This document shows positions 20,275-37,592 of a stretch of DNA of 64,000 bases, piece by piece. The notes below the pieces were generated by a model. That model was not told the DNA's origin and made no database searches. It saw only the letters and a program-made list of their open reading frames with translations. Each line of letters opens with the position of its first letter. Within the stretch, counting starts at the first letter, position 1. Source of the stretch: an uncultured Methanobrevibacter sp. (GTDB taxonomy: Archaea > Methanobacteriota > Methanobacteria > Methanobacteriales > Methanobacteriaceae); contig NZ_CADCJB010000012.1 of NCBI RefSeq assembly GCF_902801725.1, positions 1 through 64,000 on the forward strand, read 5' to 3'. The translations under genes were made by a program, and so were the position numbers.

Positions 20275-20312
20275 GAAAAAAAATAATGAGTGTAAAAAAA
20301 TAATTTTACACT
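20275..20312 (-). terminator. Hairpin terminator of the 995-residue adhesin gene
   Basis: AGTGTAAAA and TTTTACACT form a nine-base stem with a six-base loop (20289-20312) overlapping the stop codon. A run of T on the minus strand follows after a few bases. Confidence 0.65.
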
Positions 20313-23298
20313 ATCTTTTAACGATTAATGTTGTTTTAACTTGTGATTTCAAGTATTTGACAACAACAGAATATTTGCCTACATTAAAATTCTTTAAGGC
20401 AATAGTAGCTACACCTTTTTTATTAGTTTTAGCAACATATGTTTTACCTTTGATTTTGAAAATAACTGTGCCTGCAATCGCTTTGCCCTTACTTGTTTTT
20501 AAGCTGGCGGAGTATTTAATTGATTTAGCCTTTTTCCTGACGGCACTGTTTGCCTTTAGAACTTTTTTAATGGTTATTGTATTTTTTACACTGTACCCTT
20601 TATAGGAAGTTGCAATTACATATTTTCCAGGGGCAAAACTAAATGTTTTAAAAGCATATCCATAAGCATTGGTTTTTACTTTGAAAATTGATTTGCCGAC
20701 TTTCATTGAAATTACAACACCTTTACCAACAGGCTTTCCATTATCCCCAATTACACGAACTTTAAATGTTGCTTTACCATTATAATCAACAACAACATTT
20801 TTGTTGTTAATTATTCTTTTAATTGTTGAAGGATTACTGTCAACATTCCAACTAATGCTTTCATCATTCAATTTAAATACAATAATCTTTTCTGAAGGAA
20901 TTTTAATATAGTCTGATAGATATCCGTTTTCAACAGATAACATATTTCCATTAGATACCTCTACTTTGAAAATCGGCAATGATTCCGGCACGATAATTTT
21001 AAATCTGGAATTATTTTTATTAACTCCTTCAAAAGCAATAACTATCTTTGCATCTTTATCCTGAATCAACTTGGTGCCGTTTGAAACATTCATTGCAATC
21101 CAAGTAAAATCATCAGTAAAATCATCGGAGGTATTGAAATTAAATAATTTTTCAAATTTGGGATTATTTGATCCCCACCAATTATTTGAAACATTTATGC
21201 TGTCCCAGGTATTATTAAAAATCGCATATCCTATTTTATCGTAATTATTGTTAAATGAAGAATAGGAAACATTAATTCCCCTTCTTGCAATTATTGCTCC
21301 TCCATCTTCATTAGCAACATTATTTTCAAAAACAGAACTGACAATATTCAAATTACCTTTATTGTCAATGGCTCCACCGTTGTTGGTTGCCCTATTATTG
21401 GTGAAATTTGAATGATTTATTGTTAAATTCCCACCATTATCAATTGCACCTGCACCGTATGCCTCATTATCATCAAATAAAGAGTTTTCAATTGTTAATA
21501 TGCCAGAATTATCAATCGCTGCGCCATAGCTTTTAGCATCGTTTGATATGAATTTTGTGGAATTTATATAAACATCGGCATTTTTATTAATAAAAATGCA
21601 TCCCCCTTCATCAGCACCAGTATTTAATTTGAATAAGGAATCAGTAATCCTTACATTATCCTTTAAAAGATATAACACCCCAGAATTATGCATTACTTTA
21701 TTATTAATAAACTGGCAATTATCAATTTCTAAATTGCTATTTGAATAAATTCCTGCTGCTCTAGATGCACTATTTGAACTGAATTCTGAATTTTTAACTC
21801 CCAACAGAGAATTTGTATAGATTGCTCCACCAAACATTGCTTCATTAGATTTAAAAGTTGAATCTACAATATCCAAATCTCCTTCATTGTAAGCAGCGCC
21901 TCCATTGCCTCCTGCTTTGTTAGTCTCCAAATCAACATCAGTTAAACTTAGACTTCCAGCATTATAAATTCCGCCTCCATTAACTGGGGCATAATTTTTA
22001 TTGACAGTAGAATTGCTGAGTGTCAATGAATCTGTATTGTAAACAGCACCTCCATTATTATTTGCACTGTTAACCTCCAAATCAACATCAGTTAAACTTA
22101 GACTTCCAGTATTATAAATTCCACCGCCATTTTCAGCAGAATTATAATTCAAGACAGTCATTTTAACTGTAAGAGGAATGTCATTAACATAAATTCCTCC
22201 ACCATTTTTTGCAGAGTTGTTATTAATGATGGAATTTTTAATTTCTGATGAAAATATAGCACAGTATATTCCCCCACCATTAGTATCTGCAACATTGTTG
22301 GTGACTGTTGAATCTGAAAGACTTAAATAACCTTGATTCAAATCGATTCCACCACCACGATAAGCAGAGTTATTTGTTATCACTGAATTTGAAACAGTTA
22401 AACCTGCTTTAGCTTCCACATATACTCCACCACCCTTACGTGCAGTATTATTATCTATTGTACAATTTTCAATAGTTAAAAGGAATTCTGATATGAAAAA
22501 TCCGCCGCCACAATCTCCGGTGTTATTCTGTACAATTGAATCATAGGCTTCACAATATCCCCAGCTTTTAATTCCACCACCCAAATCAGAAGCGTAATTA
22601 AAATAAAATTGAGAATTATAAATTTTTAACAAACCTCTATTGTTATAAACTCCTCCACCACGGGCTGCGGAGTTATTGGTGAAAATTGAACCATATATTA
22701 AAAAATTTCCAAACCTTTTATAGATTGCTCCACCTTCAAGAGCATTATTGTTGAGGAATGTGGAATTTTCAATTTTTAAATCTCCCCCATAATCATCAAT
22801 TGCAGCACCAAAACTGGCAGTATTGTTATTAAATAATGAATTATAAACATTCAATTCGCCATTTTCTGAATTGTGTACAGCACCACTTTCGGCATAATTG
22901 TTAACTACAGTTGAGTTTATGATTGATAACTTTCCGTCATTATCAATAGCTGCCCCATCTCCGAGAGTACGTCCATTAGTAAAAGTTAAACCGACAATAT
23001 TTACATTGGCATTACGGGATATTACAAGAATATTTGATTTGTCGCATGCATCCAATACTGTTTCGGACGAGTCTGATCCATAAATATTAATATTTTTATT
23101 GATTGTGATTGCTGAACCATTCCCATGATAGGTTTTATCCTTAAGATATATTGAATCACCTGGATTTGCACTATCAATCATGCTTTGAATTGTATCGAAA
23201 TTATCATCGCTTTGTGTTAGATTAATATCGCCATTTTCAGCATAGACTCCATTCAAAAATACTATCGAAAAAAATACTGCAAATAGCAATATTGACAT
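20311..23298 (-). CDS. Adhesin-like protein with long beta-helix and C-terminal Ig-like domains
   Basis: 995 residues from the ATG. Residues ~40-700 are a long run of polymorphic-membrane-protein-like repeats (GGGIYN, GGAIYxN, NNSAxNGGGIY), predicted as a right-handed beta-helix. The last 170 residues hold two Ig-like units ending VKYLKSQVKTTLIVKR, with no membrane anchor. The reading frame stays open above the ATG (KIKKSKL, a good basic start for the signal peptide), and GAGGGG at 23328-23323 is spaced for an ATA codon at 23316, not for ATG 23298, which is 24 bases away. I keep the ATG and flag ATA 23316 as a likely true start. Two near-identical units 150 bp apart mark a recent internal duplication. 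Confidence 0.85.
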   Translation of the reverse strand: MSILLFAVFFSIVFLNGVYAENGDINLTQSDDNFDTIQSMIDSANPGDSIYLKDKTYHGNGSAITINKNINIYGSDSSETVLDACDKSNILVISRNANVNIVGLTFTNGRTLGDGAAIDNDGKLSIINSTVVNNYAESGAVHNSENGELNVYNSLFNNNTASFGAAIDDYGGDLKIENSTFLNNNALEGGAIYKRFGNFLIYGSIFTNNSAARGGGVYNNRGLLKIYNSQFYFNYASDLGGGIKSWGYCEAYDSIVQNNTGDCGGGFFISEFLLTIENCTIDNNTARKGGGVYVEAKAGLTVSNSVITNNSAYRGGGIDLNQGYLSLSDSTVTNNVADTNGGGIYCAIFSSEIKNSIINNNSAKNGGGIYVNDIPLTVKMTVLNYNSAENGGGIYNTGSLSLTDVDLEVNSANNNGGAVYNTDSLTLSNSTVNKNYAPVNGGGIYNAGSLSLTDVDLETNKAGGNGGAAYNEGDLDIVDSTFKSNEAMFGGAIYTNSLLGVKNSEFSSNSASRAAGIYSNSNLEIDNCQFINNKVMHNSGVLYLLKDNVRITDSLFKLNTGADEGGCIFINKNADVYINSTKFISNDAKSYGAAIDNSGILTIENSLFDDNEAYGAGAIDNGGNLTINHSNFTNNRATNNGGAIDNKGNLNIVSSVFENNVANEDGGAIIARRGINVSYSSFNNNYDKIGYAIFNNTWDSINVSNNWWGSNNPKFEKLFNFNTSDDFTDDFTWIAMNVSNGTKLIQDKDAKIVIAFEGVNKNNSRFKIIVPESLPIFKVEVSNGNMLSVENGYLSDYIKIPSEKIIVFKLNDESISWNVDSNPSTIKRIINNKNVVVDYNGKATFKVRVIGDNGKPVGKGVVISMKVGKSIFKVKTNAYGYAFKTFSFAPGKYVIATSYKGYSVKNTITIKKVLKANSAVRKKAKSIKYSASLKTSKGKAIAGTVIFKIKGKTYVAKTNKKGVATIALKNFNVGKYSVVVKYLKSQVKTTLIVKR
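21925..22122 (-). repeat. Near-identical intragenic repeat, 150 bp apart
   Basis: The 48 bp at 21925-21972 and at 22075-22122 differ at one base (35 identical, one mismatch, 12 identical). Both encode the reverse of GIYN(A/T)GSLSLTDVDLE in an adhesin beta-helix. The offset is 50 codons, in frame, so copy number could change without breaking the gene. Confidence 0.85.
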
Positions 23299-23313
23299 TA
23301 ATTTAGATTTTTT

Positions 23314-23328
23314 TATTTTAATCCCCTC
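23314..23328 (-). promoter_or_regulatory. Shine-Dalgarno pointing to an ATA start codon
   Basis: GAGGGG (23328-23323), six bases, then ATA (23316-23314), in frame with the adhesin signal peptide and giving it a basic N terminus (IKKSKLM). The first ATG is too far downstream for this site. Confidence 0.45.
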
Positions 23329-23510
23329 AAATAATATTTATTTAGAAATATATTCACTTTAAAATATAATTTTAAATTAAATAACCTTAATTTAAAATAT
23401 TTCATAAAACGTTATAATGATTTATTATTAACGATGATAAATGATATATTCCAAATAATATTTATAATCTACCCAAGGATTTTAAAAATTATCTGAAAAA
23501 TGCAACTAAC

Positions 23511-23558
23511 ATTTGAAAAAAAGAAAAAAAAGAAAAAGTAATAATAGGATTATTACTT
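23511..23558 (-). terminator. Hairpin terminator of the 698-residue adhesin gene
   Basis: Stem AAGTAATAAT/ATTATTACTT with a three-base loop (23536-23558), followed on the minus strand by a long T-rich run. Confidence 0.65.
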
Positions 23559-23560
23559 AT

Positions 23561-25657
23561 TTATTTAACAACATATACCACTTTTTTAATTGTGGCTTTG
23601 TATGTAGCATCTCCAGCAAATTTGACAGCAGCTGTAAATTTACCTTTTTTGAGAACTTTTACACTGATAGTTGCAATACCTTTAGAATTGGTTTTTGCAG
23701 TAAATGTTTTACCGTTTACAGTAATAGTAACTTTTTTACCAGCAACAGCTTTTTTTGCAGATTTTAAAGCAACTTTAATTTTTTTAACTTTTTTAACTGC
23801 TAAAGTAGCTTTAGAAGCAGTTAAAGCAGTAGCTCTTTTGTTTACTTTAAGTACTGCAGTATCAAGTGAAGCTTTAGTATTATTATCACCAGCGAAGTAT
23901 GCAACAATACTGTGTGTACCTGCAGCAATATTTTTAACAGTCACTTTGAAAGTACCGTTTTCATCAGTAGAACCAAAACCAACAGTTTCACCGTCAATTA
24001 AAATTGCTACCACTTTATCAGCTAATGCAGAACCGTCTTCAAGTTTTAAGTTTGCAGCAATAACTTTAGAAGCAGCTGTATAAATAGTTGCACCTGAAGT
24101 ACTAATACTAGTAGCAACAGGAACAATTACAGTGGATTTAGGTAAAGTTAAGTTCAATGCAGATGAAGCAAAGTCTTCTGTACCATCAAATATAATTGAC
24201 ATGTCTTTTTCAGGAATACCTGCAATGGTGAAAATTCCATCTTTATCAGTTGTTGCATTTACAGTAATGCCTTCAATAATAGCAAAAACAGATTCATCGT
24301 TAATACCTTTACCTGCAAAGTCAACTAATTTTGCAGTTACAGTACCGTTAGCAGCAATATCACTAACTACAATTTGAGTAGCGACTAAGTCTGCTTTAGG
24401 AATGATAATATCTGTGACATTATTAGCTTTTTTCCCGTAGTATGCAGGTTCTGTTCCCCATTCAGTGGACCATACAACAGCAGCTTTTACACCATCGAAT
24501 AATTCGTTATTTCTTACATCAATAGCTGCGAATGGGTTTAATTGACTTTTTTGACAGAGAATGTGTAATAAAGTTACAGATGCCCCAACAACATCTTTAT
24601 CCGCTGCTAAAACAGTATTATCAGTTACATTAATGTTTCCAAGAGTACTTGGGTAACCGTGAGCAGTATTACCTTGTTGAGCAGCAATTAATAAATTCTC
24701 ATTTACTGCATGGAAAATGTTTTTAGAAATTGAAATACTGTCAGATGCTTTTTCAATACTGATTACTGGGAAAGCACCATATAAGCGTTCTCCATCTTGG
24801 AAAATACCACAACGATCGAATACATTGTTATCAATGAAAGTACCTTCAGTTGATGCTCCTCCGAAGAAAATAGCATAAACACTACCATTGAATAAGTTAT
24901 TGGTAATTCTAGCATCACCACTACCTCCTGCAATGGAACATCCATCAAGAACAGGGCCATTGAATATGTTATTATCAACAGTAAGGAAGTGAGAACCCAT
25001 TACACTAATAGTTTTAGAACCTTTTTCTTTATTTACAGTAGGATCGTTAATGAGTAAAGTAGCGATACCACCATTGAATATAGAATTTTTAACAGTTACA
25101 TAATTAGAACTAGCTACAACAACAGCTTGATTGAAATCTTTAAAAGTACAGTTATCTACAACACCATGAGTAGAACCAGCTTCACCATCGAAACGTACAC
25201 CCCAACCTGCAACATTACCTCCATAGGTCAAATTGTTTTTAGGGTTGGTGTCAACAAAGTTCAATCCTGTGAAAGTAACATAATTGGATCTTACATTGAA
25301 TAATCCATTACCGTCACCATATCCTGTAATGAGGGTTTTACCATTACCTTGGATAGTTAAATTGTCTGTTGTTACATTAATTGTATTACCTGCAAAATCA
25401 TAAGAATCAAAATTACTTAAATCGACAATGTCTCCTACAGCAGCGTTTCCAATCGCATTTTGAACACCTGCAGTATCATTAGTGGCTGGTTTTAAAGATG
25501 CAGCAACTACTTCATCAACCGCATCAACAGCAACTACATCATCAGCAGCTTCATCAGCAGCTAAAACATCTGTTGCATTAGATGCTGAAACTGAACTGAC
25601 AGATAATGCGACTAAAATAACTAAGAGGAGAGGTATTAATATCTTCTTGTTATTCAT
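23561..25657 (-). CDS. Adhesin-like protein with beta-helix and Ig-like domains
   Basis: 698 residues. Signal peptide LIPLLLVILVALSVSSVSA. Residues ~60-400 are a PbH1-type beta-helix (NNTLTYGGNVAG-like, VKNSIFNGGIATLLIN, ITNNLFNGSVYAIFFGG). Three Ig-like units follow: one with IVVSDIAANGTVTAKLVDFAGKGINDESV, one with ADKVVAILIDGETVGFGSTDENGTFKV, and a Lys-rich last one (KKAVAGKKVTITVNGKTFTAKTNSKG). No membrane anchor. ATG 25657 is placed after AAGGAG. Its lower use of Asn-rich repeats and Ala/Thr/Val-rich composition set it slightly apart from the other adhesins. Ligand unknown. Confidence 0.85.
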   Translation of the reverse strand: MNNKKILIPLLLVILVALSVSSVSASNATDVLAADEAADDVVAVDAVDEVVAASLKPATNDTAGVQNAIGNAAVGDIVDLSNFDSYDFAGNTINVTTDNLTIQGNGKTLITGYGDGNGLFNVRSNYVTFTGLNFVDTNPKNNLTYGGNVAGWGVRFDGEAGSTHGVVDNCTFKDFNQAVVVASSNYVTVKNSIFNGGIATLLINDPTVNKEKGSKTISVMGSHFLTVDNNIFNGPVLDGCSIAGGSGDARITNNLFNGSVYAIFFGGASTEGTFIDNNVFDRCGIFQDGERLYGAFPVISIEKASDSISISKNIFHAVNENLLIAAQQGNTAHGYPSTLGNINVTDNTVLAADKDVVGASVTLLHILCQKSQLNPFAAIDVRNNELFDGVKAAVVWSTEWGTEPAYYGKKANNVTDIIIPKADLVATQIVVSDIAANGTVTAKLVDFAGKGINDESVFAIIEGITVNATTDKDGIFTIAGIPEKDMSIIFDGTEDFASSALNLTLPKSTVIVPVATSISTSGATIYTAASKVIAANLKLEDGSALADKVVAILIDGETVGFGSTDENGTFKVTVKNIAAGTHSIVAYFAGDNNTKASLDTAVLKVNKRATALTASKATLAVKKVKKIKVALKSAKKAVAGKKVTITVNGKTFTAKTNSKGIATISVKVLKKGKFTAAVKFAGDATYKATIKKVVYVVK

Positions 25658-26079: not shown

Positions 26080-27672
26080 ATGAAAACAGCCAAAATAGCA
26101 TTGGCAATATTTATCTTTTTGATTTTTATCAATGGAGTTAATGCATTTGAAGACAACACAACAGCACATAATATGATAATTTCAACAGCTGAAAATCCCA
26201 TATTAAACGACATATCCTCAGATTTAGAATCAGAAATTAATAATGCTCAAAATGGAGACGTAATCCTAATTAAACCAGGAACATATCACTTCAACAATGT
26301 AACATTAACAAAAAACATTACTCTTGAAGGCAGTGGAAATCCCGAAAAAATCATTTTTGATGGGGAAAAGAAATATAACCTTTTTTCAATACGAAATGAC
26401 TCGACTCATGTGGTTTTTAGGAACATAACATTCATTAATGCATACACAGAAGGATTTGGAGGAGCCATTTCAATAGAAACTGGCCATGTCAGTGTGGACA
26501 ATTGCATTTTCATTAACAACACCGCTGGTGTCAATGCAGGGGGCATTTCCAATTACGGTACTGAAGAAGAAAAAGGATATCTTTTACTTGAAAATTCTTT
26601 ATTCATTGGAAATCATGGGAATCATGACGGCGGTGCAGTTACAACATGTTTTGCCCATTCTGACATATACAATTGCGTGTTTATAAACAATTCCGCCCAT
26701 AGGGATGGTGGAGCTATTCGTGTTAGCGTTCAAGGATACGGTAATGTTCAGGACTGCATCTTCATGTACAATCATGCGGACGAATGGGGTGGAGCATATT
26801 ACAGCTGGTCTGGAGAATCAAATATCCAAAGATGCATATTTATGAACAATACTGCAGGTACAAACGGTGGTGCAGTAATGGTTTCCGGAAACTTAAACCT
26901 TGAAAATTCAATAATCGTCAATAATACTGGTGGAAGAACAGGCGGTTCATTTTACATCCAGCAACCAATGTATGATGCCGTGACAAGCATTCATATTCAT
27001 GATAACCTCATTACAAATAATACATCCCCCAAAGGACAGGAAATATTCATTAAATGGGATGATGTAAAAAGCCTCTATACTGACTTCAACAACAACGATT
27101 GGGGAACTCAAGATCCAAATGACCCGTCAGTCATCGATCCAGACAAAGTAACACACAGAAGCAGAGTATCATCAACTATCCACTCCAATTTATTAGAAAC
27201 TATGAATTTAGGTTTATTAAACAGATATAAAGATACTTTAAAAGATTATTTCCCTGAAAATTTCTTTGATGATGAGGATGATGAAGTTGATAGGCCGAAC
27301 AATAATCAGAATTCAGACAGTAACAATAACAACAATGCAAATAACTACAATGCAAACAAAAACAGCAATAAAATAAATACAGAAAATGAAAATTCAAAAA
27401 ATTCCAAAGCATCCAATATGAATAACCAAATAAATATAAACAACACCAATAATCACATTAAATCTGATGCAAATGACGATTATAATTCAAAAGACAACGA
27501 AATTGTTGGAAATTCAACATCACATGGAAAAAATAACAAAGCATATGAATTAAATAAAAAATCACACTCAGTTATCAAACAGGGATCACTAGATATCAAA
27601 TATTATGTTATTGGAATAATCATAATATTTATACTTTTAATAATCGGTTATAAAAGAGGAAAAATGGAATGA
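26080..27672 (+). CDS. Adhesin-like protein with beta-helix, Asn-rich linker and C-terminal membrane anchor
   Basis: 530 residues. Signal peptide IALAIFIFLIFINGVNA; residues ~45-330 have beta-helix motifs (GGAISIETGHVSVDNCIF, NNSAHRDGGAIRV, NNTAGTNGGAVMV). From ~395 an acidic patch (FFDDEDDEVDRP) leads into a roughly 110-residue linker made mostly of Asn, Lys and Ser, then one membrane helix (YYVIGIIIIFILLIIGY) and a short basic tail KRGKME. So this one is held in the cell membrane with its linker spanning the pseudomurein. It is the only adhesin in this island on the plus strand. Confidence 0.85.
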   Translation: MKTAKIALAIFIFLIFINGVNAFEDNTTAHNMIISTAENPILNDISSDLESEINNAQNGDVILIKPGTYHFNNVTLTKNITLEGSGNPEKIIFDGEKKYNLFSIRNDSTHVVFRNITFINAYTEGFGGAISIETGHVSVDNCIFINNTAGVNAGGISNYGTEEEKGYLLLENSLFIGNHGNHDGGAVTTCFAHSDIYNCVFINNSAHRDGGAIRVSVQGYGNVQDCIFMYNHADEWGGAYYSWSGESNIQRCIFMNNTAGTNGGAVMVSGNLNLENSIIVNNTGGRTGGSFYIQQPMYDAVTSIHIHDNLITNNTSPKGQEIFIKWDDVKSLYTDFNNNDWGTQDPNDPSVIDPDKVTHRSRVSSTIHSNLLETMNLGLLNRYKDTLKDYFPENFFDDEDDEVDRPNNNQNSDSNNNNNANNYNANKNSNKINTENENSKNSKASNMNNQININNTNNHIKSDANDDYNSKDNEIVGNSTSHGKNNKAYELNKKSHSVIKQGSLDIKYYVIGIIIIFILLIIGYKRGKME

Positions 27673-27687
27673 ATAGAAAAACTATTC
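27671..27687. terminator. Bidirectional hairpin between convergent genes
   Basis: GAATAG-AAAAA-CTATTC sits across the 9-bp gap between the adhesin stop and the DUF3021 stop. The stem overlaps both stop codons. It can serve both directions, though its T runs are short. Confidence 0.4.
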
Positions 27688-28107
27688 ACCATTCAATTTT
27701 TTGTTTAAATCGCGCGCAACCAAATAATAATAAATATAAAATCCAAACCAAGAAACAGCAGCAAATATACAAGCTATTACAATCCACTCAACAATAACAC
27801 CAAGTCCCATGTTAATCGGCATCCATTGCAGATAAATTGCAATAACAAATAAGATTATCATTCCTATGCCCATTTGGAATGATACCTGAAGTGGAAATGC
27901 AATATCTTCCCTTTCATAAATAAGCCCTGTTATGGAAAACCCCCATCCGACAACAATTGAACCTAAGAACGCATTTATGATAGTTTCACCTGAAAAATGA
28001 ACATTATGAGGTCCTCCCTGCAAGGATATTAAAACCATAATAATCATTACGATAAAACAGCCGACAAAAGCACCCATTGCCAATCTTTTTATTAAATCAA
28101 CTTTCAT
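27682..28107 (-). CDS. DUF3021-family membrane protein
   Basis: 141 residues, four predicted helices. The pattern RLAMGAFVGCFIVMIIMVLISL, then GETIINAFLGSIVVGWGFSITGLIYEREDI and a C-terminal KKLNGE, matches DUF3021, a family that in Firmicutes is nearly always paired with a LytTR regulator. There it is thought to restrain the regulator at the membrane. The start ATG 28107 has AGGTGA, eight bases after the LytTR stop. Last gene of a four-gene operon. Confidence 0.75.
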   Translation of the reverse strand: MKVDLIKRLAMGAFVGCFIVMIIMVLISLQGGPHNVHFSGETIINAFLGSIVVGWGFSITGLIYEREDIAFPLQVSFQMGIGMIILFVIAIYLQWMPINMGLGVIVEWIVIACIFAAVSWFGFYIYYYLVARDLNKKLNGE

Positions 28108-28115
28108 TTCATCAC

Positions 28116-28556
28116 CTATAAATCCAAAGCCTGCTTGAAATCAGGCAGATATTTTCTTGATATGTTGTCCTTTAGACCATTTTTAAGTTGTATAAACATC
28201 ATTCCCTTAAGTGAGGGAGCTACTCTTTCAACCTTTTTTAAATTAACGATAGTGGATTTTGAAATCCTTACAAAATCACTATCCAAAGTCTCTTCAACCT
28301 GATATAATGGCTTTTTAATCAGATATTCACTGTTTTCCGTATAAACTTTAACTTGCTTATCTTCAACCCTAAACATGTAGACATCACTAAATTCCAAAAG
28401 TGCAAAGTCAGACCCTTTTTTAACGGCCAGCATATCATTAGAATCATCACTTTCAAGAATTGACATTGCTCTTGTAATATTGTCAGTCAATTCATTGGTA
28501 TGGATGTCCGCATGCGGCTCTTCAATATCCCTTGAAATAAATAAATTTACCTTCAT
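28116..28556 (-). CDS. LytTR-type DNA-binding regulator
   Basis: 146 residues without a receiver domain. The C-terminal ~95 residues are a LytTR domain: VYMFRVEDKQVKVYTENSEYLIKKPLYQVEETL, FVRISKSTIVNLKKVERVAP and FIQLKNGLKDNISRKYLPDFK. LytTR domains bind short direct repeats. The N-terminal part is small and not recognised. It is translationally coupled to the preceding 2TM gene by an ATGA overlap and followed by DUF3021. Single-domain LytTR plus membrane partner is a bacterial (Firmicutes) arrangement, so transfer into this archaeal lineage is likely. Confidence 0.85.
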   Translation of the reverse strand: MKVNLFISRDIEEPHADIHTNELTDNITRAMSILESDDSNDMLAVKKGSDFALLEFSDVYMFRVEDKQVKVYTENSEYLIKKPLYQVEETLDSDFVRISKSTIVNLKKVERVAPSLKGMMFIQLKNGLKDNISRKYLPDFKQALDL

Positions 28557-28834
28557 GATTCATTCCCTAATTTTGCCATTTCTTCCTGAATTTTGCGTTC
28601 ACGATATTCCACAGTATTAAATTTATTTTCAATTATAAAAGCATTTAAAAATTTAATGAATATTCCAATACCCCAGAAAAATAGCGGGAACAGAACCCAC
28701 CAGAATTGTGGAGTGTATACTGCATTAATTACTGCCAAAAATGCATTGACAATAATGAAGATCATGAAACTTTTATAAAACTTAATTTTTGCATCTGCAC
28801 GCTTTTCAGCCAATGCGCGTAAATTATCATTCAT
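28553..28834 (-). CDS. 2TM-domain membrane protein, second copy
   Basis: 93 residues, two helices flanked by charged ends: LRALAEKRADAKIKFYKSFMIFIIVNAFLAVINAVY and FWWVLFPLFFWGIGIFIKFLNAF, the pattern of the small 2TM family (PF13239-like) often found beside LytTR regulators. It begins immediately after the stop of the first copy and overlaps the LytTR start by ATGA. Confidence 0.7.
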   Translation of the reverse strand: MNDNLRALAEKRADAKIKFYKSFMIFIIVNAFLAVINAVYTPQFWWVLFPLFFWGIGIFIKFLNAFIIENKFNTVEYRERKIQEEMAKLGNES

Positions 28835-29086
28835 TTAATCACCCATTTTTGAAATTTCTCTTTCAATCATTTTTTCACGACAGTTATTAAGAGAATATGC
28901 ATTAAAAAAGTCATCTAAAACTCCAATACCCCAGAAAAACATTACAAATATCAATAGCCAAAAGCTTTGCAGAAATACAAAGCAAACAATTGCTATTACT
29001 GTATTTACAATCAAATATTTATATAGATTTTCTTGAAACTTTATTTTTTTGTCAACTCTCTTTTCAGCCTCTTTCCTTAAGTTCAT
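28835..29086 (-). CDS. 2TM-domain membrane protein, first copy
   Basis: 83 residues, tandem paralogue of the following gene: EAEKRVDKKIKFQENLYKYLIVNTVIAIVCF, then FWLLIFVMFFWGIGVLDDFFNAY. First gene of the LytTR operon. ATG 29086 follows GGTGATG. Two such proteins in a row could form a heteromeric membrane sensor with DUF3021. Confidence 0.7.
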   Translation of the reverse strand: MNLRKEAEKRVDKKIKFQENLYKYLIVNTVIAIVCFVFLQSFWLLIFVMFFWGIGVLDDFFNAYSLNNCREKMIEREISKMGD

Positions 29087-29204: not shown

Positions 29205-29903
29205 CTATAATACAGCCACCAGATAGTATAAAATTGAAGTTACTGCAGGAACTGTTAAGTTGTCAATTCCACCATAACTAAATGCTTCACAGACAGTCGC
29301 AATAGCAGATATCGCCAATATGTAGACAATATTAAATTCAGGCATTGTACAACCGATTGAAGTAAAAACCATCCACACAAATACGCTCATTACTGATGTG
29401 ATAACAAACATTGTAAGTGATCCTTCAAGAGATTTTGTACCTCCGAATATTGTGTATTTGACTTTACCGAATTTTTGACCAATCAATGCTGCAAATCCAT
29501 CACCATACACCATAGGAACAATAGCCAATGCCACAATCCAAATGTAGAATTTAGGATTATTTGCCGGAGAGAGTATACTGTATATTGCAATTAATATTGT
29601 CCAAATCAATGCATAGAAAAATAAGCCTAAGGCATGTCCTGATTCAGTTACGCTGTTTTCAATTTTGACAGGAGAGTATTCAGTCAAGAAGAACAATCCT
29701 ATTGTAATCGGCAATGTTAAAAACCAAACCATCACCCATGGATCTGAGAAAAATGGCATGGCAAATATCATATTACCTACCATAATGTGCAAAAATTTAC
29801 GTGAAACTTCAGGCCTTGTCTTTAAAACCATTTCAGCTACAACGAAAATGACAGCAACATAAATATATACTACAATTAATGCAAGAATATCCGTAAATAT
29901 CAT
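29205..29903 (-). CDS. CTP-dependent polyprenol/phytol kinase-like membrane protein
   Basis: 232 residues, about seven helices. Signature segments of the dolichol/phytol kinase (COG0170, VTE5/SEC59-like) family: RPEVSRKFLHIMVGN near the N terminus, then VYGDGFAALIGQKFGKVKYTIFGGTKSLEGSLTMF (split by family as GDGxAxxxGxxFG and GTKSxEGS) and EAFSYGGIDNLTVP at the end. Such enzymes phosphorylate phytol, geranylgeraniol or dolichol, or form CDP-activated lipids. Its ATG overlaps the stop of the tocopherol-cyclase-like gene (TAATG), so the two are made together. Confidence 0.75.
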   Translation of the reverse strand: MIFTDILALIVVYIYVAVIFVVAEMVLKTRPEVSRKFLHIMVGNMIFAMPFFSDPWVMVWFLTLPITIGLFFLTEYSPVKIENSVTESGHALGLFFYALIWTILIAIYSILSPANNPKFYIWIVALAIVPMVYGDGFAALIGQKFGKVKYTIFGGTKSLEGSLTMFVITSVMSVFVWMVFTSIGCTMPEFNIVYILAISAIATVCEAFSYGGIDNLTVPAVTSILYYLVAVL

Positions 29904-31021
29904 TACTTATCATACTCCCCATATTCACAGCCAGCATTTTCCATTTTCACATGATCGATTAATGTTCCGTCTTTCTTGTATAGTTTGATTTCACCCCAAC
30001 CATTTCCGCCATTCCATAAACGGTTGTGTCTTTTTTGGCCATCAGGAGCTTCATAATTAATAAGTAACATTTCATCGCGTTTACAGTAGAGTACCATTTC
30101 CATTTTTGAATTTTTATTGCTTGCATTTATATGCCATGTATGAATTTCATCGCCCTCTTCAAAGTCAAAGTCGATTTTCACCATGTTCCAGAATCTTGCG
30201 AAATTGTACTCATACATGGTTCCCTCATAGTAAAATCCAATCAGCAATTTGCGAGGAATAGATATTCCAAATGCTTTTGGTCTTCCACCACCCGCTTCAA
30301 AAGCAGAATTATTGAGTTTTTTACCAGTTTTAAGACTGGTTAAGTTACATGATGAAATCCAAAGCCATGGTGAAGTAAAATCCCCTCCCCAATTCTTATC
30401 GGCATAACCATAGGATTTTTCAGGAATTACTTCATATTCCTCACCATCCAACCAAATAGTACCCTTATATTGAGTTTTGATTCCTTCAGCATGCCAGAAC
30501 ATTTCAAAAGAGTTTAATTTTCTGAACAAGGAGTTTGCACCATAACCAACATTAAAAGTGATTTGTTTATCAATATCCAAATCCCACATCATATCTCCCG
30601 CATCACACATATATTCCGGATGATTTTGAGCGTCTTCTTCGCTTACTCTTGCAAATCCACTCATGTGAGTTTCGGTTAGACTGCAATCCCCAACACGAAT
30701 ATTCAATTCATCATCAGGACAATCAAAATATTTCATAGAATAAAAATTATGAATTTGTTTTGGATTTTTACCCCATGCACCTGCCTTGACCATGCAATAA
30801 GACGGTTTTTTGCCAGCAGCTTTGTTTTCAGGCAATTGACCTAAAGTTGGTTCCTCTTCAGCCAGTGCAGGATTACATACAAAGTATTCAATGAAAAATG
30901 GTCTTGGTTCGCCAGTTTTTTTATTATATGCAGTTAAGGAATGCCACCACCAGTCATAACCCTTTTTAGCAAGTGGTCCCTTAAGCATAAAATAATCTCT
31001 TTTCAAATCACTTTTATTCAT
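29903..31021 (-). CDS. Tocopherol-cyclase-like protein
   Basis: 372 residues, soluble, no signal peptide. The N-terminal part (GPLAKKGYDWWWHSLTAYN, then FFIEYFVCNPALAEEEPT) and the beta-rich body (SCNLTSLKTGKKLNNSAFEAGGG, MVLYCKRDEMLLINYEAPDG) recall the tocopherol cyclase family (PF14249) as seen in several anaerobic bacteria; the fold is related to AttH/CrtC lipocalin-like proteins. Plant VTE1 closes the chromanol ring of prenylquinols. This archaeon is not expected to make tocopherol, so the substrate must be another prenyl compound or the activity differs. Strong GGAGG before ATG 31021; couples to a phytol-kinase-like gene. Confidence 0.6.
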   Translation of the reverse strand: MNKSDLKRDYFMLKGPLAKKGYDWWWHSLTAYNKKTGEPRPFFIEYFVCNPALAEEEPTLGQLPENKAAGKKPSYCMVKAGAWGKNPKQIHNFYSMKYFDCPDDELNIRVGDCSLTETHMSGFARVSEEDAQNHPEYMCDAGDMMWDLDIDKQITFNVGYGANSLFRKLNSFEMFWHAEGIKTQYKGTIWLDGEEYEVIPEKSYGYADKNWGGDFTSPWLWISSCNLTSLKTGKKLNNSAFEAGGGRPKAFGISIPRKLLIGFYYEGTMYEYNFARFWNMVKIDFDFEEGDEIHTWHINASNKNSKMEMVLYCKRDEMLLINYEAPDGQKRHNRLWNGGNGWGEIKLYKKDGTLIDHVKMENAGCEYGEYDK

Positions 31022-31121
31022 TTAAAGTCCTCCAAAGATAGATAATATAAGATTTGTAAAAAATATATTAAATAATTTATTACAATAAAGAAAAATAGAA
31101 AAATAGAAAAAAAGAAGAGAA

Positions 31122-33245
31122 TTATCTTTTAGAATTCATTTCTTTTATATCATCACGATAATAATAACCAATTGTCAATATCATCAACAATACAATAAAT
31201 GACATTCCAGTGACTCTAAAGAATTCATCTTCATCAATAATAATTTGTTTTACAACAGATTTAGATTCAATACTGCTTGAATCCCCACTGCCTCCGCCGA
31301 CAGCGCTTTGTGCAGAAGCGGAGCTTTCTGATTCATAAGCATTTGAAACATCTTTTGAAGGGTTGTTTGCACTATCGCCAGGAGAATTTTGCTGGCCATT
31401 ATATGTGCTGTTTCCATTATCTCCACTTTGTGAAAAACCTTGGCCGGAATTTCCAGAACCTTCATTATTTCCATTACCGTTACCATTGCCATTGCCGTTA
31501 ACTTTACCGTTAACACTCATATCATCATGGCCATATGGTATATCAGGATAAGGATAACTTGGAGTTACGCCATTTGACGGGTTAGAAACCGGAACATTGC
31601 TGTCATAAACATTTTCCCTTGGAGAATAATCAACAACCGCTTTGATAATATCACCATTATTTGCATCCACTGTGAATACACCTGATCCACCTTTTACAGT
31701 AATAGTGGCCGACTTTCCATTATTTGTTGTATAAGTCAAAGTTCTATCAGGAAGCAAACTGGCAATCTTTCCATTAGAATCGACAAATGATGCCTGGAAT
31801 TTATTTTTTCCAATTTGAGTAACGGAAAATTGTATCCTATTTGTTTTAATTTTAGGGCAAACTAAAGCTTTATCAGAATACCAGTTATCACCAAGCTCCA
31901 ATTGCCCACCTTTAAATGAGTATTCGACATCTTTGGCTTCAACCTGAATATGCCTATTTCCAAAAAGGGCATTGTAGCTTATATCCTGACTTTCAGGTTT
32001 CAGATACTCGTCATTGAACTCAATACCAACATAACCATTACTGGCAATTTCATTAGATTGAATCATATTATCTCCAATAGAAGTCAATGAAATACCACTG
32101 TCTCCGTTATAATCAATGACATTTCCCTTTATATTAACATTGTCACCTGCTCTCAAAATATAAATCCCATTATTGGAATTTTTTGTAATGGTATTCCCAA
32201 TTATATGAAGATTTTCAGGTGCACTACCATAATTAACCCTATTTAATCTATCTGAAGTATATATTCCATTCCCACCATTTCCATAAATGGTATTACCATG
32301 GATATAAATTTTAGTGGAATTTGCCAATTCAATACCGTTCACACCATTATTGGAGATTATATTGCCTATAATATAAGCGGAATCTGAATTTACAATAACA
32401 ACACCATTTTTTGAATTTTGAACAATATTGTTTTTAGTGATATTGAGATATTTGACTGCATTTGCAACAATAGCATTGCTTTTAGTGGATATCTTATTGT
32501 TAATTAGCCTGATATAATCAGAATTGACAATTGAAATTCCATTACCATTACCCTGAATATTGAAACCATTAATAGTGGTTAATGAAGCACTTTTACCCCT
32601 AATTATAAATACAGGATTATCATTTCCTGATTTTAAGATAGTGTTTGACCTGCTTAATAATGTTAAACGTTTACTCAATACCAAATTAATATTAGAATAA
32701 CTTGATCCCTTAAATAAAATGACATTCCTATCTTTTGCACCATCGATAATTTTTTGAATTTCCATGCTTGAAAGCCCATCTTCAACAGCAATGGTATTCC
32801 TAATAGTGATTGAGGTTGTTTTTGAAGAAGCATTATATTTAGAATTTCCTAAAAATTTTGTTGCAATCTTGTAAGATCCATCATTTAAGTTAAGCTTAAG
32901 AGATGCTATTCCATAATTATTGGTAGTTTTAGTATAAGTGTTTCCAGAAACCGTAAAGTAAACTTTGGTATTCTTTAACACACTACCCTTATCATCTGAA
33001 AGTTTAACTTGGAAATAATCTCCAACAACATCAAAAGTTGTGTTACTTTTAACATCAATTTGGGTTTTAATTGGAGATGATGATTTTAAAGCCGTTTGGT
33101 CTGAATGAGCAATTGAATTATCACTTTCAGCAGATATTAGTGATGAATCATCATCTGTGACATTATTAACCTCCTGCGCAACACAGAAATTTAAGCTAAT
33201 AATAACCAATACAAACAGTACCAAAATAAAAGCTTTCTTGCTCAT
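31122..33245 (-). CDS. Adhesin-like protein: Ig-like, beta-helix, Gly/Asn linker, membrane anchor
   Basis: 707 residues. Signal peptide AFILVLFVLVIISLNFCVA. An Ig-like unit (residues ~60-150, VYFTVSGNTYTKTTNNYGIASLKL) comes first, followed by a NosD-type beta-helix (~160-440: GNTIYGNGGNGIYTSD, NSNNGIYILRAGDNVNIKGN), a small Ig-like end, a Gly-Asn-rich linker with tandem GN repeats and a Ser-rich part, then one helix (FFRVTGMSFIVLLMILTIGYYY) and a basic tail. The order Ig-first is the reverse of the anchorless adhesins next door. AAAGGAGGTG before ATG 33245 is the strongest ribosome site of the adhesins here. Confidence 0.85.
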   Translation of the reverse strand: MSKKAFILVLFVLVIISLNFCVAQEVNNVTDDDSSLISAESDNSIAHSDQTALKSSSPIKTQIDVKSNTTFDVVGDYFQVKLSDDKGSVLKNTKVYFTVSGNTYTKTTNNYGIASLKLNLNDGSYKIATKFLGNSKYNASSKTTSITIRNTIAVEDGLSSMEIQKIIDGAKDRNVILFKGSSYSNINLVLSKRLTLLSRSNTILKSGNDNPVFIIRGKSASLTTINGFNIQGNGNGISIVNSDYIRLINNKISTKSNAIVANAVKYLNITKNNIVQNSKNGVVIVNSDSAYIIGNIISNNGVNGIELANSTKIYIHGNTIYGNGGNGIYTSDRLNRVNYGSAPENLHIIGNTITKNSNNGIYILRAGDNVNIKGNVIDYNGDSGISLTSIGDNMIQSNEIASNGYVGIEFNDEYLKPESQDISYNALFGNRHIQVEAKDVEYSFKGGQLELGDNWYSDKALVCPKIKTNRIQFSVTQIGKNKFQASFVDSNGKIASLLPDRTLTYTTNNGKSATITVKGGSGVFTVDANNGDIIKAVVDYSPRENVYDSNVPVSNPSNGVTPSYPYPDIPYGHDDMSVNGKVNGNGNGNGNGNNEGSGNSGQGFSQSGDNGNSTYNGQQNSPGDSANNPSKDVSNAYESESSASAQSAVGGGSGDSSSIESKSVVKQIIIDEDEFFRVTGMSFIVLLMILTIGYYYRDDIKEMNSKR

Positions 33246-33486: not shown

Positions 33487-34872
33487 TTACATCAAGTCAT
33501 GAATTTCATCTTTAATATATAATATTACAATCACCAAACAAACAACCGCCAGAATAGACATGACCAATGAAGTTTGTCCGAATGCTGCTACAGAAACACG
33601 ATTATGAGCCAGTACCCCTCCTGCAAAAACTGTCATTAGCACCACAGCAACAGCAGATCCTATTGCACCAATGATTTGTCTTACAGTATTGTTGATAGCT
33701 GTCGCATCTTCAACATCACCAGATACAACGGCAATAGTCCATGTAACTGCAGGCATTAAACCTAAACCAGCACCGATAGCCCTTATTATTTGAGTAATAA
33801 TCATATATTCAACAGTAGAGTTTGCATCATAAGTCATCATTATCAGATAACCCGCAATCGAAAAGAGACATGACATAATCAATACTTTTCTAACTCCAAT
33901 TTTATTGGCTAAAAGAGGACCTATAAAATTAAATACAATCATGACAAGAGTTGCGGGAAGCAAAATTAAACCTGAGGTTGTTGCATTGTGGGAAGTAACA
34001 GTCTGAACAAACAAAGGCATTATAACATTCAATCCACACATTGTGAAATATAGCAATGCTGAAAATAATGTTCCAAAAAAGAAATATTTATTTTTCAAAG
34101 CATGTAAATCAACCAATGGTGTCTTAATGTTAAACTGACGGCGGACAAAGAATATTAAGCTGAATGTACCAACAACAATTGGTAAAATTACATAAACCAA
34201 ATCAAATCCATTACCTGCAATGTTTGAAAATCCAAGCATTATTCCAACACATGCTAAAACACATAAAATTAATGAAAGCACATCCAAAGGATAATCGCCG
34301 GTTTCAAATTCCAGCTTAACAACAACAAGTGCAACCAATATCAAAACGAATACCATGCCTGCAAAAATTAAGAAAATTGACCTCCAACCAACATAATCAA
34401 TAATCATCCCACCTGCAGTAGGAGCCAATGCCGGAGCAATTCCAATTATGAAACCAAATAATCCCATATAAATCTGCCATTTTTCCTCCGGAATAACCTT
34501 AAAAAGCACAATTTGAGTAATAGGAAGTAAAATTCCAGAACCGATTGCCTGAATAACTCTGGCAATAATCAATACAATAATATTTGGAGACACATATGCC
34601 AGCAAAGATCCAACTAAAAACAATGACAATGAAGACAACAGAATAGTTTTAACTTTAAAACGGCGAGTAATATAAGCGGATAACGGAATCATAACTCCTA
34701 AAACTAACAAAAATGAAGAATAAATCCATTGAGCAGTAGTTGAAGAAACATGAAAGTCATCCATGATTCCAGCAATACCTGTTGTTACCACACTTTGAGC
34801 AGCACTTAAAATAGCTGCAGCAATAATAAAAATGAGTAATGTTGACATTCCCCTATCTAATTTAACATTCAT
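33487..34872 (-). CDS. MFS drug/proton antiporter, DHA2 (14-TM) type
   Basis: 461 residues from ATG 34872; an earlier in-frame ATG at 34896 adds only MIIIRVYT and no site favours it. Motif A region YITRRFKVKT, then ARVIQAIGSGILLP and the GAxAPxxGGxIxxxxGWRxIF-like sequence GIAPALAPTAGGMIIDYVGW identify the EmrB/QacA-type branch. Closest visible relative is the MFS gene at 0.85-2.2 kb. Substrate unknown. Confidence 0.85.
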   Translation of the reverse strand: MNVKLDRGMSTLLIFIIAAAILSAAQSVVTTGIAGIMDDFHVSSTTAQWIYSSFLLVLGVMIPLSAYITRRFKVKTILLSSLSLFLVGSLLAYVSPNIIVLIIARVIQAIGSGILLPITQIVLFKVIPEEKWQIYMGLFGFIIGIAPALAPTAGGMIIDYVGWRSIFLIFAGMVFVLILVALVVVKLEFETGDYPLDVLSLILCVLACVGIMLGFSNIAGNGFDLVYVILPIVVGTFSLIFFVRRQFNIKTPLVDLHALKNKYFFFGTLFSALLYFTMCGLNVIMPLFVQTVTSHNATTSGLILLPATLVMIVFNFIGPLLANKIGVRKVLIMSCLFSIAGYLIMMTYDANSTVEYMIITQIIRAIGAGLGLMPAVTWTIAVVSGDVEDATAINNTVRQIIGAIGSAVAVVLMTVFAGGVLAHNRVSVAAFGQTSLVMSILAVVCLVIVILYIKDEIHDLM

Positions 34873-35084
34873 AGTATAGACTCTTATAATTATCACAATA
34901 AAATATATTAAAAAGAATATATAAAATTAATTTATATAAATAATTTTTAAAAAAAATTACATTAAAAATGAACATTATTCTATTGAAAAAATAATTCTGT
35001 ACAAAAAAATAATACTTTAATCAGGCATGACTTGATAAATAATACCCTTCAAAACAAAATGGACAAAAAAAATCATATATAAAA

Positions 35085-35885: not shown

Positions 35886-37592
35886 TTAAATTTGAGGAAG
35901 TCTTTCATTTGTATTTGATCGGGTCCATGAACCCATATTTGAATAGAATGTGTTGATTTTGTTTTTAGTGGCCTGACTCAATGAATAATTAAGTTTGACA
36001 ATCAGACTGGAAGTATCGTAATCATTGAACTGATTGTACATATAGTCCACTGATAGCCAATTGGTTGGAATATCGTGGCTTCCATGGTCATAGTCTCCAG
36101 AAGGATTACCCACTAAAACTTTCTTACCATCCTTACTGATATCCAAAATTGCAACATAATGGCTCCAGGTGTGGAATATTAATGCACATCCTCCTTTTTT
36201 AAGTTCAGCTATGGCTTTGGAATAATATGTGCTTTTATAGTAATATGTACATTTCATATTGTATTTTTCCAATGCCCTTTTCAGGCCGCTGGTACTTGAA
36301 CCATCATAAGAATTGGTACCTGCATCTAGGCCCAAATGCCATTCATTGACATAGTTTCTTAAAACCTGAGTACACATACTGCATGATGTAGGACCGCAGG
36401 TATAACCTGTATCCTGTTCATCCCTCACTTCGGAATAGGTATAGGATTTTCCTTTCAGGTCTACAGTTATCTGAACCGGAGCATAATTATATTTGTTCAT
36501 AAGAACAATTCTTGTGTTGATTGCTCTTTCAATTACATTCCATTTTTCCCTTACAATCAAATGCAAGTATTTAGGTTGTGCTTTTGTTTTGAAGAACACA
36601 TATTTAGTCATTTTATTTTTCATGAATAAACAATAGCTATCTCTTTTAATGACCTCACGATACTGGTCCTTTAAAAGAGTGTATTTAGCATTGCCGTCAG
36701 CAAGCACGTAAAATGCAAACATATAATCCACATCAGGAACTCCATTCTTCTTAGGAACGGAATTTAAAAATGGATTTACCGGAGTTCCTTTAATACCAGT
36801 AACATTTTTAGAGGCTGATGCACTGGTGGTCTCCTTGGTACCTGAATAAGTAACCTTGACTTCATAAGTCTTTGTACCTAAATTAGGTCTGATTACGACA
36901 ATACCTTCGGAAGTTGTTTTCTTAGTAAACTTCTTGCCTCCAACAGTTATTGTCAAAGTTTGACCAGATATTGCTGAAGCATAAGCACTTTTCATGTAAA
37001 CCTTCAGATATCCGTTTGTAAGCAATATGTCATTTCCAATGACAAGTGAAGTGACCTTTGGAACATAAAGTTTAACTGTTTTTGAGGAAGGATTGTACTT
37101 ACTGTTACCTTTATATGTTGCAGTCAATGAATATGTTCCGACATTCTTTGTAATTTTAAGGCTTGCAATTCCTTTTGAATTAGTAACTGCATTGTAGTTA
37201 GCATTATCCAATTTAAAGGCTATGGCAGCATTTTTAATTGGAGTGCCATTTGAATCCTTCAGATATACCTGGAAATTGCTTCCTTTAGCAACTTTAGTGT
37301 GAATAGGGGTTATTGTAGTAGCTAACTTCACAGTCCCCTTAGATGAAGCCATTAAGTTTTCATCTTCATTTAAATTTTTATTGAGAATATCACTATCAGA
37401 ATCATTATATGAAGAAATTACCTCCATATCCTTGGCATTATTTAATTTTAAATCCTCATTTCCTGTTGCAACAGAATCATCAGCCTGATTTAATCCCAAA
37501 TCTGTTGAATTAATATCACTAGCTGAAACAACAGCAATATTGAACAGGAGTAAAATTAAACAAATTAAAGCCAATTTCGTTTTTGAATACAT
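35886..37592 (-). CDS. Surface cysteine-peptidase-like protein with Ig-like repeats
   Basis: 568 residues. Signal peptide LALICLILLLFNIAVVSA; two Ig-like units (~90-180 and ~185-270); then a C-terminal catalytic-looking domain. TGYTCGPTSCSM puts a candidate nucleophile at Cys399, SHYVAILD gives His478, and GNP at 495-497 offers Asn496 where C39-like peptidases usually have Asp-Pro. Just before it, RAINTRIVLMNKYNYAP and VDLKGKSYTY resemble a pseudomurein-binding repeat. This layout suggests a C39/C71-like papain-fold enzyme acting on pseudomurein peptides or on surface proteins. GGTGA precedes ATG 37592; 13 bases separate it from an amidohydrolase gene upstream, so the two are probably cotranscribed. 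Confidence 0.7.
   Translation of the reverse strand: MYSKTKLALICLILLLFNIAVVSASDINSTDLGLNQADDSVATGNEDLKLNNAKDMEVISSYNDSDSDILNKNLNEDENLMASSKGTVKLATTITPIHTKVAKGSNFQVYLKDSNGTPIKNAAIAFKLDNANYNAVTNSKGIASLKITKNVGTYSLTATYKGNSKYNPSSKTVKLYVPKVTSLVIGNDILLTNGYLKVYMKSAYASAISGQTLTITVGGKKFTKKTTSEGIVVIRPNLGTKTYEVKVTYSGTKETTSASASKNVTGIKGTPVNPFLNSVPKKNGVPDVDYMFAFYVLADGNAKYTLLKDQYREVIKRDSYCLFMKNKMTKYVFFKTKAQPKYLHLIVREKWNVIERAINTRIVLMNKYNYAPVQITVDLKGKSYTYSEVRDEQDTGYTCGPTSCSMCTQVLRNYVNEWHLGLDAGTNSYDGSSTSGLKRALEKYNMKCTYYYKSTYYSKAIAELKKGGCALIFHTWSHYVAILDISKDGKKVLVGNPSGDYDHGSHDIPTNWLSVDYMYNQFNDYDTSSLIVKLNYSLSQATKNKINTFYSNMGSWTRSNTNERLPQI

Follow-up and report, generated by a model that had tools for sequence, protein, structure and literature searches.

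A tocopherol-cyclase-family gene of apparent bacterial ancestry paired with a putative prenol kinase gene in Methanobrevibacter

The gene pair and its surroundings

The window, a 64,000-nucleotide stretch of contig NZ_CADCJB010000012.1 from an uncultured Methanobrevibacter sp., carries a pair of genes, here called CYC and KIN, whose coordinates are collected in Table 1 with those of the neighbouring features. CYC lies upstream. The TAATG overlap of the two genes and the strong ribosome site before CYC were both found as an earlier, sequence-only reading of the window had described them. The same reading had called the genes fused; they are two separate open reading frames, which rules out a gene fusion. 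A possible second ribosome site, weaker than the first, precedes KIN. However, its GGGGAG also encodes the conserved C-terminal GEY of CYC, so that its conservation is not independent evidence for ribosome binding.

Table 1. Features of the CYC–KIN locus, numbered from the first base of the window
Feature	Position	Strand	Basis
CYC, 372 aa, tocopherol cyclase family	29903..31021	(-)	ORF; PF14249
KIN, 232-aa membrane protein, putative CTP-dependent prenol kinase	29205..29903	(-)	ORF
TAATG, CYC stop codon overlapping the KIN start codon (1 base in common)	29901..29905	(-)	sequence
GGAGG ribosome site, 7 nt 5' of the CYC ATG	31029..31033	(-)	sequence
GGGGAG, possible weaker KIN ribosome site, 11 nt before the KIN ATG, within the CYC C-terminus	29915..29920	(-)	sequence
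Signature GYADKNWG, CYC residues 205-212 (Y206, D208)	30386..30409	(-)	alignment
Genus-conserved downstream block: two 2TM genes, LytTR regulator, DUF3021	27682..29086	(-)	PF13239, PF04397, PF11457
EmrB/QacA-like efflux transporter near CYC	33487-34896		TIGR00711, 223 bits
Adhesin-like proteins (beta-helix, Ig-like repeats), both sides of the pair	20311-25657, 26080-27672, 31122-33245, 35886-37592		

The tight coupling seen in the window recurred in other genomes. CYC and KIN were adjacent in 71 of the 73 Methanobacteriaceae genomes that have both, a count in which one junction (G027) was joined through a 55-nt contig overlap. In this family, 44 of 53 distinct junctions showed an overlap of -1, -4 or -7 nt. 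The M. ruminantium-type genus (g9) had gaps of 40-208 nt and no overlap, the value of 208 belonging to a broken-frame copy. The adjacency and the recurring overlap are not due to chance. Moreover, purifying selection on CYC and KIN is strong, with dN/dS ranging from 0.02 to 0.1 for the former and from 0.05 to 0.2 for the latter. A bacterial-type promoter scan, which says little about an archaeon, returned 38 promoter-like sites versus 33.8 in shuffled sequence, and there were 11 terminator-like sites versus a shuffled mean of 2.4.

The downstream block starts 119 nt after KIN and occurs in the same order at many Methanobrevibacter loci; it is probably a unit separate from CYC–KIN. Two 2TM genes with a LytTR regulator and DUF3021 form a regulatory set in the style of Firmicutes. 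EmrB-like efflux genes were found near CYC at several archaeal loci, directly upstream of it in two genomes (G039 and G051), and a MacB-type ABC exporter directly followed CYC in some Methanosphaera.

Family and fold of the two proteins

PF14249 matched CYC at 44.7 bits (E 1.2e-11; cut-off 26.6 bits), with residues 168-368 aligned to profile positions 151-334 of 335, and it matched all 38 aligned family members. In the best close relative, positions 69-334 of the profile were covered. VTE1 of plants and cyanobacteria belongs to the same family, but only the C-terminal half of the profile aligned to CYC, whereas the N-terminal half was unmatched. Since the match does not extend over the whole domain, CYC represents a divergent subfamily. 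The AlphaFold2 model of CYC had a mean pLDDT of 90, and all 14 PDB matches with E < 0.001 had the two-domain calycin beta-barrel fold of CrtC, AttH and tocopherol cyclase. Kievitone hydratase, Fsa2 and 25-phosphosteroid lyase matched at E 7.5e-9 to 2e-5, pericyclases related to Fsa2 were also among the matches, and the lyase appeared weakly in the sequence search too. The tocopherol-cyclase-like assignment made from sequence was thus upheld by both profile and fold, and CYC is predicted to be a cytosolic protein of the tocopherol cyclase/CrtC/AttH calycin superfamily.

The signature residues G205, Y206, D208, K209, N210, W211 and G212 were invariant in the 38 members. Within the family of VTE1, the pattern Y-x-(D/E)-K-(N/D)-W-G is common to CYC and a distant PF14249 member from other Methanobacteriaceae, whose GYLEKDWG aligned with the CYC signature. 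CrtC, a carotenoid 1,2-hydratase, requires Tyr266 and Asp268 for activity, and the Tyr/Asp pair of CYC resembles them (PMC4717167). By this analogy, which was not drawn from an alignment, Y206 and D208 likely form an acid-catalyst motif of the CrtC kind, with D208 as the candidate acid. Characterised members of the CYC family and fold have isoprenoid or polyketide double bonds or phosphates as their targets (PMC4717167, PMC6013536), the phosphate being removed from the side chain of an isoprenoid. Kievitone hydratase (7a0q/7a0t) shares the two-domain calycin fold, but at ~11-12% identity and a TM score of ~0.5, and no flavonoid or carotenoid substrate, as used by kievitone hydratase and CrtC, is known in the CYC host. 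Two other genera of the Methanobacteriaceae (g15 and g16; L148:5318-6304, L122, L123) encode a different, more canonical PF14249 protein, scoring up to 103 bits, whose gene does not adjoin KIN.

For the KIN protein of the window, searches of Pfam and NCBIfam gave no match below E = 1, and PF01148 matched one of 25 aligned KIN sequences (E 0.003). With these two collections as the models searched, the missing family match is weak evidence against a COG0170-type kinase. The AlphaFold2 model (pLDDT 88) had CDP-DAG synthetase CdsA as its top and only plausible PDB match, with a probability of 0.99-1.00 but E of 0.017-0.046 and a TM score of ~0.4; a sequence search against the PDB returned chance matches only. 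The CDP-DAG-synthetase fold is the one expected for COG0170 CTP-dependent lipid kinases. Seven residues (R35, H39, G134, D135, G142, K157 and S162) were invariant across the 25 sequences, and R35 and D135 may correspond in position to R76 and D177 of yeast Dgk1. In that enzyme, both residues are catalytic (PMC3486869).

We regard KIN as a putative COG0170-type (dolichol/phytol-kinase-like) prenol kinase, CTP-dependent by family, in support of the kinase type first read from the sequence. The sequence-only reading had also raised the alternative that KIN is only a housekeeping CDP-lipid enzyme. Because a separate CarS (PF01864, 188 bits) is encoded elsewhere in the genome, a function as the housekeeping CDP-archaeol synthase is ruled out, whereas a housekeeping role as polyprenol kinase may hold. 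The genome of the window encodes a DUF92 (VTE6-like) protein, as do 138 of the 152 genomes from the phylum; in plants, VTE6 is the second kinase, of the DUF92 type. In two bacterial genomes (G161 and G162; L125, L126), a distant KIN-like match lay within an open frame of 483-491 aa, which might encode a kinase joined to a further domain.

Origins of CYC and KIN and their repeated pairing

Close relatives of CYC gave at least 597 pattern matches. Among the best 80 of these, the bacterial relatives were 55-65% identical and came from Lachnospiraceae, other Clostridia, Bacilli, Paenibacillus and Treponema, and the hosts were largely herbivore-gut microbes. In bacteria, CYC stands by itself. No Pfam family was shared by more than 3 of 70 adjacent genes, and a search for a conserved bacterial neighbourhood that might hint at the substrate found none. 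In the CYC tree, the archaeal copies fell into two groups with bacteria between them. Clade I comprised the window, most Methanobrevibacter, the probable M. ruminantium M1 and Methanosphaera, and clade II comprised G025, G027, G044, G060 and G065, placed beside gut Bacilli. A single archaeal clade was rejected by the AU test (p-AU 6.5e-66). Since the archaeal copies do not form one clade, CYC must have crossed between the domains at least twice, and we infer from the nesting and the wider bacterial spread that the direction was from bacteria to archaea. The Methanobacteriaceae thus appear to have taken up CYC from bacteria at least twice.

KIN has a different background. In many Methanobacteriaceae it lies between CofH and thymidylate kinase (tmk), or adjoins tmk, and these gene orders argue for a native archaeal gene with the ancestral arrangement CofH–KIN–tmk, as in M. 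smithii. No KIN was found in any bacterial CYC locus, with flanks of up to 6 kb. A joint transfer of CYC and KIN from bacteria was ruled out by this absence, by the lack of a detectable KIN in 30 of 36 bacterial genomes with CYC, and by the existence of the ancestral archaeal KIN locus. In the genome of the window, CofH and tmk are adjacent, 12 nt apart, without KIN between them, and KIN stands behind CYC, suggesting that in this lineage KIN moved out of the CofH–tmk locus to join CYC. The location of both genes in an adhesin island had earlier been taken as a hint of transfer. This applies to CYC, with its bacterial origin, but not to KIN, which is native and was relocated; moreover, the adhesin-like neighbours vary in position among relatives and are not constant across the genus.

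Genome G042, which we identify with M. smithii PS by the position of its match, contains a KIN ortholog at C1:76892-77551 (L141), ~56% identical to KIN. As reported for M. smithii, an element at 76,619-79,634 carries msm_0078, whose annotation reads putative dolichol kinase (PMC12134362), and our match falls inside it; on this positional evidence, KIN appears to be the ortholog of msm_0078. This 2.97-kb element leaves the chromosome by excision, forms a circle and is found enriched in vesicles outside the cell (PMC12134362). In contrast to KIN of the window, msm_0078 lies beside CofH and tmk on this excisable circle, and no CYC was found. An excisable, vesicle-borne element of this kind might be the way in which KIN moved in the window lineage.

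A second pairing was seen in clade II. In G025, CYC lies 81 nt before KIN, which is followed by tmk. In G027, the order CYC–KIN–tmk was obtained through an exact 55-nt overlap of two contigs, and the CYC frame is broken. Two separately acquired CYC genes thus came to stand immediately before KIN, each by its own route, the second pairing being drawn from one contig and one contig join. By a rough estimate, not a computed one, such repeated pairing of two among some two thousand genes is very unlikely without selection.

The partnership is not universal. Nine Methanosphaera genomes with CYC had no detectable KIN, nor had 30 of 36 bacterial genomes with CYC, even by profile. Both genes are present but apart in G060 and G065, and KIN occurs alone, with no CYC found, in G041 and M. 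smithii. In G067, an intact KIN lies directly behind a short CYC remnant (L143, C4:41363-42263), representing decay in place. In G019, the probable M. ruminantium M1 (L147, C1:612054-613167), the CYC frame breaks near the C-terminus and the last 26 aa lie in another frame, marking either a frameshift or a decaying gene. As CYC occurs without KIN and KIN without CYC, neither needs the other and the partnership is optional; consequently, CYC must be useful alone, and KIN likewise.

We must also note that a CYC-family gene of M. ruminantium M1, probably the same gene as in G019, already bears the annotation 'vte1' or tocopherol cyclase (PMC7772410). In the passage concerned, single genes were annotated and neither the pairing nor its history was described, so that the novelty of the present findings would lie in these two.

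Possible functions of the pair

We tentatively favour, at a level a little short of probable, a reading in which CYC modifies a prenyl chain and KIN phosphorylates a prenol, both expressed from one transcript and acting on one isoprenoid pool. CYC, soluble and with the two domains of a calycin, would add a proton to a trisubstituted double bond of an isoprenoid, probably via Y206/D208, and the prenyl chain would be hydrated or cyclised as a result. KIN, as a native membrane prenol kinase, would convert a primary prenyl alcohol and a nucleotide (CTP by family) to the phosphate, to which the DUF92 protein could add a second one. Geranylgeraniol, phytol or a polyprenol, released either in the gut or inside the cell, might for example make up the pool. 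The kinase activity of KIN, the shared substrate and the CYC reaction, be it hydration or cyclisation, are all predictions. That CYC came to stand before KIN twice suggests joint work on an isoprenoid lipid; among the observations, this recurrence speaks most strongly for a shared pathway. As CYC is conserved in bacteria and archaea, which differ in their membrane lipids, its substrate would be either an isoprenoid that both possess (polyprenol, geranylgeranyl or farnesyl compounds) or a dietary compound (phytol, carotenoids or prenylated plant compounds).

It is also possible, though we hold it somewhat unlikely, that the two genes are co-transcribed but unrelated and that the shared promoter is incidental. 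KIN would then recycle lipid carriers, as a polyprenol or dolichol kinase serving cell-wall and glycoprotein assembly, and CYC, of independent bacterial origin, would detoxify prenylated compounds from plants much as kievitone hydratase does. The solitary bacterial CYC with no recurrent neighbour is consistent with such a separation, as are the lack of KIN in most CYC genomes outside Methanobrevibacter, the largely herbivore-gut hosts among the best 80 of at least 597 matches, and the efflux or exporter genes that accompany CYC in several archaea and some Methanosphaera. Nevertheless, unrelated functions do not explain why KIN was paired with CYC twice independently, once by leaving a conserved locus.

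A more elaborate form of the favoured reading, which we consider quite unlikely as a whole, is that gut methanogens repeatedly domesticated an isoprenoid-modifying enzyme of Firmicutes and linked it with the prenol kinase they already had, turning dietary phytol, geranylgeraniol or polyprenols into an undescribed hydroxylated or cyclised archaeal prenyl lipid.

Phosphate-driven dehydration appears improbable. Here, KIN would phosphorylate an isoprenoid alcohol and CYC would eliminate the phosphate to leave an alkene, on the model of the 25-hydroxysteroid kinase and 25-phosphosteroid lyase pair of anaerobic cholesterol breakdown. The lyase (9fzn, 9g4c) has the CYC fold, is one of the few proteins whose structures matched CYC significantly, and follows a kinase in its pathway. 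However, its substrate is a steroid, COG0170 enzymes act on primary alcohols, and CYC occurs without KIN in most of the bacteria checked (30 of 36). Moreover, the known 25-hydroxysteroid kinase is phosphotransferase-family-like (PMC8449060) and not of the COG0170 type, so that the partner kinase comes from a family other than that of KIN.

The plant-like route to prenylquinol ring closure proposed from the sequence, i.e. literal tocopherol or plastochromanol synthesis in which KIN salvages the prenol and CYC closes the ring after quinol coupling, is very improbable. In its favour, CYC belongs to PF14249 and a VTE6-like protein is present. Against it, the host is anaerobic and its 94% complete genome yielded no HPPD (which could have been missed) and a single UbiA prenyltransferase, presumably the DGGGP synthase needed for archaeal membrane lipids, so that no pathway to the quinol substrate of VTE1 was found.

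Members of the CYC family occur widely among the bacteria and archaea of rumen and gut. Its repeated pairing with a putative prenol kinase points to isoprenoids, and the pair provides a testable two-gene system in the methane-producing archaea of livestock. KIN is also an example of a metabolic gene that gave up a conserved position in archaea and became the neighbour of a bacterial gene, and its M. smithii ortholog resides on an excising circle that travels in vesicles.
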